Assembly: GCF_039905635.1 (NCBI RefSeq)
Contig: NZ_CP157000.1
Location: forward strand, 2,480,001 to 2,544,000
DNA: 64,000 nt
From: Microbacterium sp. ProA8
GTDB lineage: Bacteria; Actinomycetota; Actinomycetes; Actinomycetales; Microbacteriaceae
Direction: 5' to 3'
The notes beneath the pieces were generated by a model that worked only from the letters and a program-made list of their open reading frames with translations, did no database searches and had not been told where the DNA came from. Shown piece by piece: positions 52,824 through 56,986 of the stretch; the first letter of the stretch is position 1, and each line of letters begins with the position of its first letter. The position numbers and the translations under genes are program-made.

Positions 52824-53582
52824 TCAGCCCCGCGGCGGGTTCGCCGGAAGCCACTCCTCCAGAGTCGTCTCGAAGTGCTGCGCACCGTCCACCGGCATCA
52901 GTGTCCGCTCCTCCATCCGCGCGCCGAAGTACGGCGCATCCGGATCGGTCACGACCTCGCGCTGGTCGCCGCGGAAGGTGAGCCCGCGCCGCACCATCTC
53001 GTCGAGCCCCATGACCTCGGGGCCGGCGATCTCCACATCCGCATTGAGCGGCGCACCGGCCGCAGTACGGGCGACGGCGGTGGCGACATCCTCCGCCGCG
53101 ATCGGCTGAACGAGGTTCCCCGGAAGGTGCAGCGCGTCACCGTTGGTCGAGACGGCCGCGATGCCGGTGATGAACTCGAAGAACTGCGTCGCGTGGACGA
53201 TCGAGTACGGGATGCCCGACTCGCGGATCAGCTCCTCCTGAGCCGTCTTCGCCGCGAAGTACGAGATGGTGTTCGGGCGGTTCGTGCCGACCACGGTGAG
53301 GGCGACGTAGTGCCCCACGCCGGCATCGCGTGCAGCGGCGATGAGGTTCTTCGTCGAGGTCGTGAAGAACTCCATCACGTCGTCCGGCGCGAACGACGGC
53401 GAGTTCGACACATCGACGACGACGTCCGCCCCCTGTAGCGCGTCCGCAAGGCCCTCGCCGGTGATCGTGTTGACGCCGGAGTTCGGCGATGCCGGGACGG
53501 CCTCGTGCCCGTGGTCGGTGAGCTTCGCGACGACCTTCGAGCCGATCAGTCCGGAGCCGCCGATGACGACGATCTTTGCCAT
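52824..53582 (-). CDS. NmrA-like NAD(P)-binding oxidoreductase/epimerase 1, predicted ECF41 target
   Basis: Atypical SDR of 252 residues. Cofactor motif KIVVIGGSGLIGSKVVAKLTDHGH; then DVVVDVSNSPSFAPDDVMEFFTTSTKNLIAAARDAGVGHYVALTVVGTNR, YFAAKTAQEELIRESGIPYSIVHATQFFEFITGI, and GPEVMGLDEMVRR. It lacks a classical YxxxK but keeps YFAAK at the same place (Tyr, Lys). Close paralogue of the gene at 55043-55837 (same NSP/NSS, ATQFFEFI and ITGEGL/FTGEGL segments). NmrA-type oxidoreductases are the 'O' of the COE genes that accompany ECF41 sigma factors. It has its own ECF41-type promoter at 53631-53657. Confidence 0.88.
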   Translation of the reverse strand: MAKIVVIGGSGLIGSKVVAKLTDHGHEAVPASPNSGVNTITGEGLADALQGADVVVDVSNSPSFAPDDVMEFFTTSTKNLIAAARDAGVGHYVALTVVGTNRPNTISYFAAKTAQEELIRESGIPYSIVHATQFFEFITGIAAVSTNGDALHLPGNLVQPIAAEDVATAVARTAAGAPLNADVEIAGPEVMGLDEMVRRGLTFRGDQREVVTDPDAPYFGARMEERTLMPVDGAQHFETTLEEWLPANPPRG

Positions 53583-53630: not shown

Positions 53631-53657
53631 GACAGGACAGCCGCCGGATCTGTGACG
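53631..53657 (-). promoter_or_regulatory. Predicted ECF41 sigma promoter of NmrA-like gene 1
   Basis: On the minus strand: CGTCACA (53657-53651), 17 bases, GTC (53633-53631). The ATG is 48 bases downstream. It aligns with the promoter of the paralogue at 55888-55914, including identical GAT and AGCTGGTGA stretches in the same places. The -35 deviates in one base from TGTCACA. Confidence 0.7.
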
Positions 53658-53694: not shown

Positions 53695-54114
53695 TCACTC
53701 CACGTCCCAACCCGTGAGCTTGTCGGGGTTGACGACGAGCCACGCCTGCACGATCCGGCGGCGCCGGAGACGGATGCCGAGGATCCCGGTCACCTTCCCG
53801 CCGCGGCACACGACGACCCCGGACATCCCGTTCACCGACGCGACACGCAGCGTCGCCGCCGGATCCAGCAGCACACCGGAGAGGTAGCGACCCACCTCGG
53901 ACGCACCGCTCAGCGCCGATCGCGGCGCGGGCACCTTGCCGCCGGCGTCGACGGTGAGCTCGACGCCGGGGTGCAGGATCCGCCCCACGGCGCGCGGATC
54001 TGCGGAAGCCGCAGCCGCGACGAGCGCCTTCGCCACGCGGTCATGCTGCACGGCGCTCGACTGCGAGCTCCGCGGTGAGAAGTGCAGCCACGACGCGCGG
54101 TGCCGCCGGGTCAC
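53695..54114 (-). CDS. Stand-alone SnoaL-like protein resembling the ECF41 C-terminal regulatory domain
   Basis: Protein of 139 residues from a GTG start that overlaps the ECF sigma stop (GTGA). From about residue 22 it reads as an NTF2/SnoaL fold (HDRVAKALVAAAASADPRAVGRILHPGVELTVDAGGKVPAPRSALSG, then GRYLSGVLL) and ends VVNPDKLTGWDVE. DAGGK (56-60) and NPDKL (129-133) correspond to the DGGGK and NPDKL motifs of the C-terminal extension in ECF41 sigma factors. The upstream sigma factor has its own extension with weaker motifs. This protein could therefore act in trans on the sigma factor, as a split or duplicated regulatory domain. That function is inferred. It has no sigma region 2 or 4. Confidence 0.75.
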   Translation of the reverse strand: MTRRHRASWLHFSPRSSQSSAVQHDRVAKALVAAAASADPRAVGRILHPGVELTVDAGGKVPAPRSALSGASEVGRYLSGVLLDPAATLRVASVNGMSGVVVCRGGKVTGILGIRLRRRRIVQAWLVVNPDKLTGWDVE

Positions 54115-55016
54115 GCCCCCACCGGAGCGACATGGCCGAGCTTGCCGGGGCTCATGATCCAGTGGATCTGACGGATGCCGTCATCCGACGCCGTGATCAT
54201 CGCGACGGTCGTGACGACCCCATCTTCCGAGACGGTCGCTGCAGGCTGTCCGTTGAGTTCGGCCCATCCGATCGTCTTGCCGATCCAGAAGTGACTCGAG
54301 AACGCGGCGACGAACTTGGCGACGCGACTGCGTCCGGCGACCGGGATGCGCGCGGCGAGCTTGACGCCGTTGCCGTCGGTGGTGCTCACCACGTCCTCGG
54401 CGAACAACCGCTCGAGGGCGCTCACGTCGCCTTTCTGCGCGGCGACGAGGAACGCCTCGAGCAGCCGCCGCTGCGCGCTGGCCGCCACTTCCGCTTTGCG
54501 CGCCGACTCCAGGTGCTTGCGCGCACGGCTGACCAGCTGACGCGCGCTCGCCACGGTGGCGCCGATGACGTCGGCGATGCGCTCATACGGGTAATCGAGC
54601 GCTTCGCGCAGGATGTACGCGGCGCGCTCGGTCGGCGTCAGCTTCTCGAGCACGAGGAGGATGGCGAACTGCAGCGCCTCGCCCCGCTCGGCGCCCAGGG
54701 CCGGGTCGGCGTCGGTGTTGACCGGCTCCGGCAGCCACGGGCCGATGTAGGTTTCGCGGCGGGCGTGCGCGGACTGGGTCGCGTTGATCGAGAGCCGCGT
54801 GGCGACCGTCGCGAGGAAGGCGCCCGGCTCGCGGATGTCGACGCGATCGGCGTTCTGCCAGCGGATCCACGTCTCTTGCACGATGTCTTCGGCGTCGGCC
54901 ACGGTGCCGAGCATGCGGTACGCGATGCCGAAGATCCGACGCCGGTGCTCGTCGAAGACGGCGAGCGCCAGCGTGATGTCGTCCTGCTCGTTTCCAAGCC
55001 GTGTGGTATCGCCCAT
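54111..55016 (-). CDS. ECF41-family (SigJ-like) RNA polymerase sigma factor
   Basis: Sigma factor of 301 residues. Sigma-2 at about 16-85 (LALAVFDEHRRRIFGIAYRMLGTVADAEDIVQETWIRW); then the ECF41 linker motif WLPEP at 94-98; sigma-4 at about 110-175 (LTPTERAAYILREALDYPYERIADVIGATVASARQLVSRARKHL). A SnoaL-like C-terminal extension follows (180-301), the feature that replaces an anti-sigma factor in this group. Its two usual motifs are changed: DGNGVK (214-219) for DGGGK and SPGKL (289-293) for NPDKL. It lies between two NmrA-like genes. It is 26 bases after NmrA-like gene 2, so it is probably transcribed from that gene's ECF41 promoter, giving positive autoregulation. Confidence 0.93.
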   Translation of the reverse strand: MGDTTRLGNEQDDITLALAVFDEHRRRIFGIAYRMLGTVADAEDIVQETWIRWQNADRVDIREPGAFLATVATRLSINATQSAHARRETYIGPWLPEPVNTDADPALGAERGEALQFAILLVLEKLTPTERAAYILREALDYPYERIADVIGATVASARQLVSRARKHLESARKAEVAASAQRRLLEAFLVAAQKGDVSALERLFAEDVVSTTDGNGVKLAARIPVAGRSRVAKFVAAFSSHFWIGKTIGWAELNGQPAATVSEDGVVTTVAMITASDDGIRQIHWIMSPGKLGHVAPVGA

Positions 55017-55042: not shown

Positions 55043-55837
55043 TCAGCGTACGCCCGCGGCGGAAGGGAGAAGCGCCGCGTCGCTCTCGCGCGGCATCACC
55101 TGCCAGTCGTGGAATCGCGTCGGCGCGATGGTCGCGCCGGGCGCGGGCAGCAGTTCCCAGCGGTCGAGCTGCGCCCCGAAGTAGGTCGCGAGCGGGTCGG
55201 CGACGACCTCGCGCTCGTCGCGGCGGAACCGGAGCTCGCGCTGGGCGAGGAAGCCGAGTTCGAACACTTCGGGCCCGGCGTGCTCCGTGATCGCACCGGT
55301 CGGGCGCGCGAGAGCGGCCCGTGCGACAGCGGCGGCCACATCGTCGGCGGCCATGGGCTGGATCAGAGCATCCGCCAGGTGTGCGATGCCGCTGCGGGTG
55401 GCGGCATCCGTGATGCTGCGGATGAATTCGAAGAACTGCGTGGCATGCACGATCGAGAAGGGGCGACCGGATGCCGTCAGCAGGCGCTCCTGCTCGGCTT
55501 TGGCCTGGAAGTAGCCGCCCTCGGAGCGGGCGAGCCGGTCGGTGCCGACGACCGACAGCACGACGTGGTGGCGCACCCCGGCGGCGGCGCCGTACGTGAG
55601 CAGGTTGAGCGTCGAGCCCGAGAAGAACTCGCGGGCGCCCGCCTCGTCGGTGTACGACGAGTTCGACACGTCGACGATGGTCTCGACTGCCTCGAGGGCC
55701 TGCTCGAGGCCTTCTCCCGTGAACGAGTCGACGCCGACCGCGCGCGCCACCACGACGACGTCGTGCCCTGTGGCCGCGAGTGCCGCGACGACCCTCGAGC
55801 CGATGAGTCCCGTCCCCCCGATGACCGCGATGCGCAT
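55043..55837 (-). CDS. NmrA-like NAD(P)-binding oxidoreductase/epimerase 2, predicted ECF41 target
   Basis: Atypical SDR of 264 residues. Motifs: RIAVIGGTGLIGSRVVAALAATGHDVVVVAR, ETIVDVSNSSYTDEAGAREFFSGSTLNLLTYGAAAGVRHHVVLSVVGTDR, YFQAKAEQERLLTASGRPFSIVHATQFFEFIRSI, MAADDVAAAVARAA. A paralogue of the gene at 52824-53582. ATG 55837 is chosen because AGAGGGG lies 6 bases upstream; the in-frame GTG at 55858 is less likely. It heads the NmrA-sigma-SnoaL operon, preceded by an ECF41-type promoter. It may reduce or epimerise a quinone or nucleotide-sugar-like compound; substrate unknown. Confidence 0.88.
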   Translation of the reverse strand: MRIAVIGGTGLIGSRVVAALAATGHDVVVVARAVGVDSFTGEGLEQALEAVETIVDVSNSSYTDEAGAREFFSGSTLNLLTYGAAAGVRHHVVLSVVGTDRLARSEGGYFQAKAEQERLLTASGRPFSIVHATQFFEFIRSITDAATRSGIAHLADALIQPMAADDVAAAVARAALARPTGAITEHAGPEVFELGFLAQRELRFRRDEREVVADPLATYFGAQLDRWELLPAPGATIAPTRFHDWQVMPRESDAALLPSAAGVR

Positions 55838-55887
55838 GACGACCCCTCTCTGCTTCACCGCGCGTGGGCACGCGCGTCACCAGCTGA

Positions 55888-55914
55888 GACCGGATGCCCC
55901 AGCCATCTGTGACA
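55888..55914 (-). promoter_or_regulatory. Predicted ECF41 sigma promoter of the NmrA2-sigma-SnoaL operon
   Basis: On the minus strand: TGTCACA (55914-55908), 17 bases, GTC (55890-55888). The ATG is 50 bases downstream. The -35 matches exactly the TGTCACA reported for ECF41-dependent promoters. It implies autoregulation of the sigma gene. Confidence 0.75.
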
Positions 55915-55976: not shown

Positions 55977-56003
55977 TGTCACAACACCGCCGCCCGCCCG
56001 GTC
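55977..56003 (+). promoter_or_regulatory. Predicted ECF41 sigma promoter of the epoxide-hydrolase-like gene
   Basis: TGTCACA (55977-55983), 17 bases, GTC (56001-56003), then a 47-base leader to ATG 56051. It is back-to-back with the promoter at 55888-55914, so the sigma factor would drive both directions. Confidence 0.75.
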
Positions 56004-56050: not shown

Positions 56051-56986
56051 ATGTCGAGCACTTCCTTTTCCACCCCGCTGCGCACCGTCGACGCCGGCGA
56101 ACTGTCCGTCGCGTACATCGACGCGGGCGATCCCGCCGCCGAGCCGGTCGTGCTCCTCCACGGGTTCCCGTACGACATCCACAGCTACGTCGACGTGCTG
56201 CCGCTGCTGACGGATGCCGGCTTCCGCGTGCTCGTCCCGTCCCTCCGGGGGCACGGCTCCACGTCGTTCCGCGACACGCGCAGCATCCGCTCCGGTCAGC
56301 AGGCCGCGCTCGGTGCCGACCTGCTCGCGTTCATCGACGCCCTGGCCCTCGAGCAGCCGATCCTCGCCGGCTACGACTGGGGCGCGCGCGCCGCCTGCGT
56401 CGTCGCCGCACTGTGGCCCGAGCGCGTGGGCGGGCTGGTGTCGGTGAACGGCTACCTGATCCAGGACATCTCGGCAGCCGGCATCCCGCTCACTCCGCCT
56501 CTCGAAGCCGGATTCTGGTACTTCTGGTACTTCGCGACCGAGCGCGGGCGCGCCGGCCTCTCCCGCGACGCGCGGGGCATCGCCGACGTGATCTGGCGCC
56601 GCAACTCCCCCGCCTGGGCCTACGACGCCGCCACCCTGGACCGAACCGCCGCCGCCTTCGACAACCCCGACTATGTCGACGTGGTCATCCACTCGTATCG
56701 CCATCGCCTCGGTCTCGAGCCCGGGGCGCCTGCGTACGTCGACCTCGAACGTCGCCTCGCCGCACTGCCGTCGATCACCGTGCCCACGATCACGCTCGAT
56801 GGCACGGCCGACGGCAATTTCCCCGCCACGGACGGATCGCAGCACGACCGCTTCTTCACCGGTCCGCGGCGGCACCGACGCGTTCCGGACGCCGGACACC
56901 ACCTTCCCGCCGAGGCCCCGCATGCGTTCGCCGAAGCGATCCTCGATATCGCCGAGCCGCCGGGCGACGGCGCGGGCACTCCCTGA
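56051..56986 (+). CDS. Alpha/beta hydrolase, epoxide hydrolase-like, predicted ECF41 target
   Basis: Protein of 311 residues. Oxyanion-hole motif VVLLHGFPYDIHSYVDVLPLLTDAGFRVLVPSLRGHG; nucleophile elbow LAGYDWGARAACVVAALWPERV with Asp109, so it belongs to the Asp-nucleophile group (epoxide hydrolases and haloalkane dehalogenases); catalytic His in VPDAGHHLPAEAP. The cap domain contains GFWYFWYFATERG. Ribosome site GGGAG lies before ATG 56051. Its promoter has the same -35/-10 pattern as the two NmrA-like genes, which places it in the ECF41 regulon. It could detoxify epoxides or halogenated compounds; substrate unknown. Confidence 0.88.
   Translation: MSSTSFSTPLRTVDAGELSVAYIDAGDPAAEPVVLLHGFPYDIHSYVDVLPLLTDAGFRVLVPSLRGHGSTSFRDTRSIRSGQQAALGADLLAFIDALALEQPILAGYDWGARAACVVAALWPERVGGLVSVNGYLIQDISAAGIPLTPPLEAGFWYFWYFATERGRAGLSRDARGIADVIWRRNSPAWAYDAATLDRTAAAFDNPDYVDVVIHSYRHRLGLEPGAPAYVDLERRLAALPSITVPTITLDGTADGNFPATDGSQHDRFFTGPRRHRRVPDAGHHLPAEAPHAFAEAILDIAEPPGDGAGTP

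Follow-up and report, generated by a model that had tools for sequence, protein, structure and literature searches.

The 64,000-nucleotide stretch of contig NZ_CP157000.1 of Microbacterium sp. ProA8 (positions 2,480,001 to 2,544,000), hereafter the window, carries on its minus strand, in this order, the gene epi1 (55043-55858), the gene of an extracytoplasmic function (ECF) sigma factor of group ECF41 (54111-55016), a small gene for a stand-alone SnoaL/NTF2-like protein (53695-54114) and the gene epi2 (52824-53582). Sigma factors of group ECF41 are widespread, and the group is described without obvious anti-sigma factors (PMC3426412). The features of the two central genes are listed here, classes A and B being the two classes of SnoaL domain separated by the trees described further on.

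54111..55016, minus strand: ECF41 sigma factor, class A, 301 amino acids (aa) (TIGR02957, Sigma70_r2, r4_2, SigJ 5xe7)
54723..54749, minus strand: linker motif YIGPWLPEP between the sigma2 and sigma4 regions
54129..54482, minus strand: cis SnoaL domain of the sigma factor (AlphaFold2 secondary structure; SnoaL_2 at an expectation value, E, of 7e-4, below the Pfam cut-off)
54366..54377, minus strand: cis motif DGNG of the sigma factor, reading DGNGVK
54138..54152, minus strand: cis motif SPGKL of the sigma factor (SPDKL in the nearest relative)
54111..54114, minus strand: GTGA overlap of the small-gene start and the sigma stop
53695..54114, minus strand: class B stand-alone protein with SnoaL/NTF2-like fold (139 aa), a proposed regulator acting in trans
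53938..53949, minus strand: D-A-G-G motif of the small protein (D56, G58 and G59 invariant in 22 proteins)
53716..53730, minus strand: NPDKL motif of the small protein (N129, P130, K132 and L133 invariant in 22 proteins)

The sigma factor is recognized by TIGR02957 (330 bits against a cut-off of 323) and, also above cut-off, by the SigJ model NF007214, while its sigma2 and sigma4 regions match Pfam PF04542 and PF08281 above cut-off and the whole protein matches the SigJ structure 5xe7 with E 3e-45. The WLPEP linker of ECF41 is present, the neighbours are of ECF41 type (two epimerase-like genes, with promoter-like sites one or two letters off the consensus), and the C-terminal extension has a SnoaL fold, its AlphaFold2 secondary structure matching that of the small protein; this cis domain is complete and conserved. 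Its end motif is SPGKL instead of the NPDKL of ECF41, so that by its sequence the protein is a variant within the group, still matched by the family models. SPGKL is an uncommon variant: L004, the closest relative, reads SPDKL, and only one other sigma factor (L244) among the 78 of the main clade defined below shares it.

The small gene starts with GTG and overlaps the sigma stop by 4 base pairs (bp), and its product carries DAGGK and NPDKL, in agreement with the sequence-only reading, made earlier on this DNA, which had described a WLPEP-bearing sigma factor followed by an overlapping gene for a SnoaL domain alone. The fold, which that reading had set beforehand as a check, is borne out by the AlphaFold2 model, an NTF2/SnoaL fold with a predicted local distance difference test score (pLDDT) of 85.3 and a predicted template modelling score (pTM) of 0.78. 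The 139 aa have no Pfam match and no match to a sigma2 or sigma4 region. Their alignment to positions 154-290 of the SigJ model NF007214 goes together with a best match to SigJ among the sequences of solved structures (E 2.8e-8), and the top two structural matches are sigma-factor domains, with a margin over other NTF2 proteins that is small for SigJ. The small protein is most likely derived from an ECF sigma factor and is itself not one.

Across 22 aligned small proteins the residues M1, D56, G58, G59, G70, L78, N95, G96, W125, N129, P130, K132 and L133 are invariant, and D-x-GG and N-P-x-K-L are kept in all 22; other stand-alone proteins that deviate are L121 (SPQKL), the short L250 and the Microbacterium protein L243, which is without D-x-GG. 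The ratio of nonsynonymous to synonymous substitution rates (dN/dS, Nei-Gojobori) is 0.20-0.39 in 7 chosen pairs of small genes; over all 136 pairs, where silent sites are near saturation, the median ratio of the corresponding proportions (pN/pS) is 0.59. From 5.8 billion proteins, 14 relatives were retrieved by a search limited to about the same length.

The arrangement is conserved in the genus. Some match to the small protein at E 1e-3 is present in 195 of 366 Microbacterium genomes, many of these matches lying inside full sigma factors, and matches of at least 100 bits are present in 18 of the 366, that of the window included. A small gene was parsed by script in 22 of 23 loci, that of L015 being found by tblastn and hmmsearch; 21 of the 22 parsed genes start in an ATGA/GTGA overlap and the other (L021) starts 8 bp after the sigma stop. 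The order epi1-sigma-small-epi2 recurs in relatives (loci of 3.4 kb, in which epi1 is often cut).

A census with a class A cis-domain model at E 1e-25 gave 87 hits in 79 of 361 Microbacterium genomes, all of which were examined; 78 sigma factors with class A scores of at least 160 bits form the main clade and the remaining 9 a paralogous clade. A small gene was counted when a stand-alone SnoaL domain starts between 120 bp before and 500 bp after the sigma end, and it is found downstream of 73 of the 78 main-clade sigma factors versus one of the 9 paralogous ones, so that the conservation beside ECF41 genes on which the sequence-only reading had made itself depend is borne out; the arrangement also occurs in Kribbella and Acrocarpospora, where a stand-alone protein follows the sigma factor as well. 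The sigma stop lies within ATGA/GTGA in all 78 main-clade loci, the exact start of the small gene at that site having been checked in the script-parsed loci and a few others of the 78. The main-clade loci without a detectable small gene (L223, L235 with a 47-aa stub, L237, L245 and L252) retain this form of the stop. In two loci (L026 and L253; genomes G221 and G285) a class A SnoaL domain occurs without an in-frame sigma part, split over two frames in L026, and the small gene is present.

The same census places the motifs of the cis domain in context. Main-clade sigma factors read DGNG in 77 cases and DGDG in one, and the residue that precedes their P-x-K-L is S in 69, A in 8 and T in one, while the paralogous clade has DGGG with NP in 8 cases and AP in one; the cis/trans contrast of motifs thus holds in the genus as a difference between two clades. 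DGNGVK and SPGKL, earlier called degenerate, are indeed what the sigma factor carries, but DGNG with S/A/T-P-x-K-L is the norm of its clade and not the defect of a single gene. The claim that the motifs are better kept in trans than in cis stands, since none of the 78 main-clade sigma factors has the N of NPDKL and all 22 small proteins keep N-P-x-K-L. Decay of the cis motifs in response to a copy in trans is not a general rule: the altered DGNG/SP motifs are retained in all five main-clade sigma factors without a small gene, and partner-bearing sigma factors outside Microbacterium often keep NP.

The origin of the small protein was approached with trees of SnoaL domains, one of 146 domains and then a careful one of 62 rows hand-picked after the first had been seen, which omits L026_S2 as well as several stand-alone rows on long branches, including L021, L024, L026_S1, L081, L120, L121, L130 and L136. 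In the 62-row tree a branch with 100/100 support sets class A apart from all other rows, and the stand-alone rows need 6 changes, 5 of them forced by well-supported branches; the 37 stand-alone rows and 8 changes of the 146-row tree are overstated by L026_S2, a frameshifted class A sigma factor. Constraining the stand-alone proteins to one clade costs 162 log units (approximately unbiased test, p-AU 0.00056), so a single origin is rejected and the stand-alone state arose more than once. The Acrocarpospora protein is sister to fused class B domains of Streptomyces, and that of Kribbella to a Kribbella class B domain joined to a weak sigma part. Two groupings of loci are common to the A and B trees (L045/L054/L077 and L052/L116/L118, in the 146-row tree). 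The sequence-only reading had proposed a split or duplicate of the sigma factor's own domain, and neither is supported; a local duplication is set aside, with moderate strength, because the small protein clusters with the class B domains and its placement in class A is rejected (p 0.028, for seven Microbacterium small proteins forced to class A, in groups named after the first tree had been seen). The small protein most likely descends, on these groupings, from a second, adjacent ECF41 sigma factor of class B.

Loci in which both classes are still recognizable come from 84,980 species whose genomes were scanned with a B-like pattern; the scan gave 250 relatives, loci being taken from the best 80 of the 250 (L033-L112). 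Because these loci were chosen by the B-like pattern, the counts of B with A cannot give the share of class A sigma factors that have a partner; for Microbacterium that share comes from the census above. A SnoaL open frame without a sigma part is present in 54 of 142 loci (some places present twice), and at least two fused ECF41 genes in 26 loci (including the repeats L117, equal to L052, and L091, of the same sequence as L087). In Herbiconiux (L052) the stop of a class A sigma gene overlaps, in GTGA, the start of a gene for a full-length class B sigma factor, and L116 and L118, of the same family, have the same order. In many Streptomyces the B partner still has a sigma-like part, from which WLPEP is missing, and such A-B pairs are often convergent and not tandem.

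Among the 84 class B domains of L033-L112, 41 have a class A sigma factor in the locus and 43 do not. The former comprise 20 domains without a sigma part and 21 with one, in which the motif [DE]A[EDQ]D..Q of sigma region 2, which we take to be the core RNA polymerase binding motif, is present in none and WLPEP in one; among the latter the motif is present in 29 and motif and WLPEP together in 25, and both are present in all 41 class A sigma factors. The difference gives a Fisher p of 4.6e-10 for motif plus WLPEP and a Mann-Whitney p of 1.8e-9 for the sigma score, values that overstate the case, the rows being related; the motif itself is a looser pattern made after a stricter one had missed 25 of the 41 class A sigma factors. 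Streptomyces class A sigma factors beside a class B domain without WLPEP or the core motif include those of L048, L063, L066, L071, L074, L080, L085-L087, L093-L096, L099, L102, L103 and L107, among others. In a class-wide sample (394 genomes, 30 loci fetched, that of the window included) a B-type domain accompanies the sigma factor in 8 loci (L154, L155, L162, L165, L169, L172, L175 and L180), with a weak sigma part in L175 and at about 0.9 kb in L180.

Computation thus supports the fold, descent, conservation, overlap and repeated reduction of the small protein, as well as promoter-like sites of the autoregulatory type. The reading preferred here, with a rough probability of 0.6, is that the small gene represents a second ECF41 sigma factor, of class B, repeatedly reduced to a trans-acting and probably anti-sigma-like regulator of the class A sigma factor. 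A class B sigma factor would have stood in tandem with the present class A one and lost its sigma2 and sigma4 regions, its SnoaL domain being kept under purifying selection as a separate protein. The recurrence of sigma factor and small protein in several lineages suggests that the small protein controls its neighbour; its gene is adjacent to the sigma gene and overlaps it, and the two may be co-transcribed. An anti-sigma-like role in trans is favoured because the small protein keeps the motif to which the contact is attributed (PMC8999054, PMC9023288, PMC7730460) and the neighbouring sigma factor's own copy has changed. The NPDKL end of the small protein may dock on the WLPEP linker normally held by the cis domain or, alternatively, the two SnoaL domains may pair; the small protein would hold the sigma factor back until a small ligand binds, and because the sigma factor's own promoter type precedes epi1-sigma-small, negative feedback would follow. 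By rough judgement, binding to the class A sigma factor is probable and a regulatory effect on it plausible; a negative sign of this effect falls a little short of even odds, and a positive one, as chaperone or co-activator, is improbable.

Several observations weigh against this reading. Five of the 78 main-clade sigma factors have no small gene, and in three of the other 73 it looks split, broken or short (L236, L241 and L250), so it is dispensable in some lineages; the small protein evolves faster than the sigma factor (in L005, 69% identity versus 90% for the cis domain); outside Microbacteriaceae it is common for a class A sigma factor to have no B partner within about 1.5 kb (22 of the 30 class-wide loci); the A-B pairing counts are phylogenetically non-independent, and two of the loci, L087 and L091, are identical in sequence; and 14 of the 43 class B domains without a class A sigma factor in the fetched locus are also without the core motif (13 fused, one stand-alone), so that sigma parts decay outside visible pairs as well. 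The losses and the fast evolution are also what a decaying remnant without function would show; the dN/dS values, the invariant motifs, the conserved overlap and the repeated origin make such a remnant very improbable.

A protein of this fold could instead serve the epimerase-like enzymes, as a ligand sensor or an enzyme for their substrate without contact to the sigma factor: isomerases and epoxide hydrolases often have the NTF2 fold and make up the structural match lists below the sigma factors, and both flanking genes encode NAD(P)-binding enzymes. This is unlikely given that the small gene lies beside the sigma gene, also in Kribbella and Acrocarpospora, that its conserved residues are the ECF41 signature motifs, and that its two best structural matches are sigma-factor domains, even if narrowly for SigJ. 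Alternatively, the small protein could be a co-activator or chaperone, providing in trans some portion of the extension needed for activity. Such a role would accord with the altered cis motifs of the main clade and with the report that full removal of the extension abolishes ECF41 activity, partial removal raising it (PMC3426412); it appears still less likely, because the cis domain is complete and conserved and some sigma factors of this clade have no small gene beside them. If the small protein is a reduced class B sigma factor acting on its class A neighbour, a wider reading may be ventured, at somewhat less than even odds as a whole: in actinobacteria a second ECF41 sigma factor would repeatedly have lost its polymerase-binding and promoter-reading regions and become the dedicated regulator of the first, the inhibitory contact moving from cis to trans in Microbacterium, and the altered full-length B of Herbiconiux, the decayed sigma parts of Streptomyces and the bare SnoaL proteins of Microbacterium, Kribbella and Acrocarpospora would be living intermediates. 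Such a series illustrates a route by which a transcription factor could turn into a regulator of its paralogue, and with the regulatory domain naturally separated, the effect of this domain can be assayed in trans while the sigma factor is left intact.

In sigma architecture, WLPEP linker, C-terminal extension, epimerase-type neighbours and TGTCACA-type promoter the locus resembles the fused-domain ECF41 systems (PMC3426412; SigJ 5xe7), whose neighbours include carboxymuconolactone decarboxylase, oxidoreductase or epimerase genes (PMC3426412). It differs from them in the separate class B SnoaL protein beside the sigma factor, the authors of PMC3426412 reporting no obvious anti-sigma gene nearby. 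In Streptomyces tsukubaensis RsfG binds SigG1, of group ECF56, and is called its anti-sigma factor, so that a SnoaL-bearing sigma factor can have a separate, co-transcribed partner proposed as anti-sigma factor (PMC7730460). Compared by description, the two systems differ, RsfG being reported without a conserved Pfam domain and SigG1 without NPDKL (PMC7730460). MonBI and MonBII are two NTF2-like proteins in one complex, and by their structure titles they are epoxide hydrolases of polyether synthesis and not sigma regulators. PhyR, in which a sigma-like domain acts as an anti-anti-sigma factor, and the split sigma pair SigO-RsoA also have a sigma-factor part working separately in trans; they reuse the sigma-like part, whereas the small protein has kept the regulatory domain and lost the sigma part. 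No description of a stand-alone SnoaL protein beside ECF41 was found in the open literature, although the 2017 SigJ paper, the 2019 ECF41/ECF42 paper and the 2021 reclassification could mention one.

The flanking genes and promoter-like sites are the following.

55888..55914, minus strand: ECF41-type promoter-like site TGTCACA-N16-GGTC before epi1 (pattern match to the published consensus)
55043..55858, minus strand: epi1, NAD(P)-binding NmrA/epimerase-like (Pfam NAD_binding_10, NmrA, Epimerase; same order in relatives)
53631..53657, minus strand: ECF41-type promoter-like site CGTCACA-N16-TGTC before epi2
52824..53582, minus strand: epi2, second NmrA/epimerase-like gene, 48% identical to epi1
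55977..56003, plus strand: third ECF41-type promoter-like site TGTCACA-N16-GGTC, divergent
56051..56986, plus strand: alpha/beta-hydrolase-like gene (named by eye) behind the divergent site, possible third target

The published consensus is TGTCACA-n16-CGTC, and the only targets detected were the neighbouring enzyme genes (PMC3426412). All 11 loci examined for epi1 have a relaxed form of the consensus 48-58 bp upstream of this gene, and 38 of the 39 loci with the start of an epi2-like gene in view (the miss being L077) have it 45-55 bp before that gene, or 28 of 29 after removal of genomes fetched twice; about 0.006 matches are expected per stretch. In the whole genome YGTCACA-N16-KGTC has 11 exact matches, 3 of them within the sigma cassette, versus 2 for the reversed pattern. 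Putative promoters of the autoregulatory type thus precede the cassette genes, a prediction supported by computation, and we infer that epi1, whose likely start is an ATG at 55837, sigma and small gene would form one operon with epi1 first.

Relatives of the divergent hydrolase gene occur in nine other loci, two of which (L033 and L039) have the motif 45-68 bp upstream and a third (L052, 28% identity) a weaker one; the other six show no promoter motif, L047 among them since its start is out of view. Elsewhere in the same genome, at 440563-440763 (L144/L145), a divergent pair of promoter matches includes one lying 116 bp before a short-chain-dehydrogenase-like gene (by eye), without a tblastn match to the sigma factor within the 3 kb fetched around it. 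Near 4123900 (L153) the same promoter type precedes a carboxymuconolactone-decarboxylase-like gene (by eye) close to the other ECF41 of the genome, and the promoter motif is internally supported by this recurrence.
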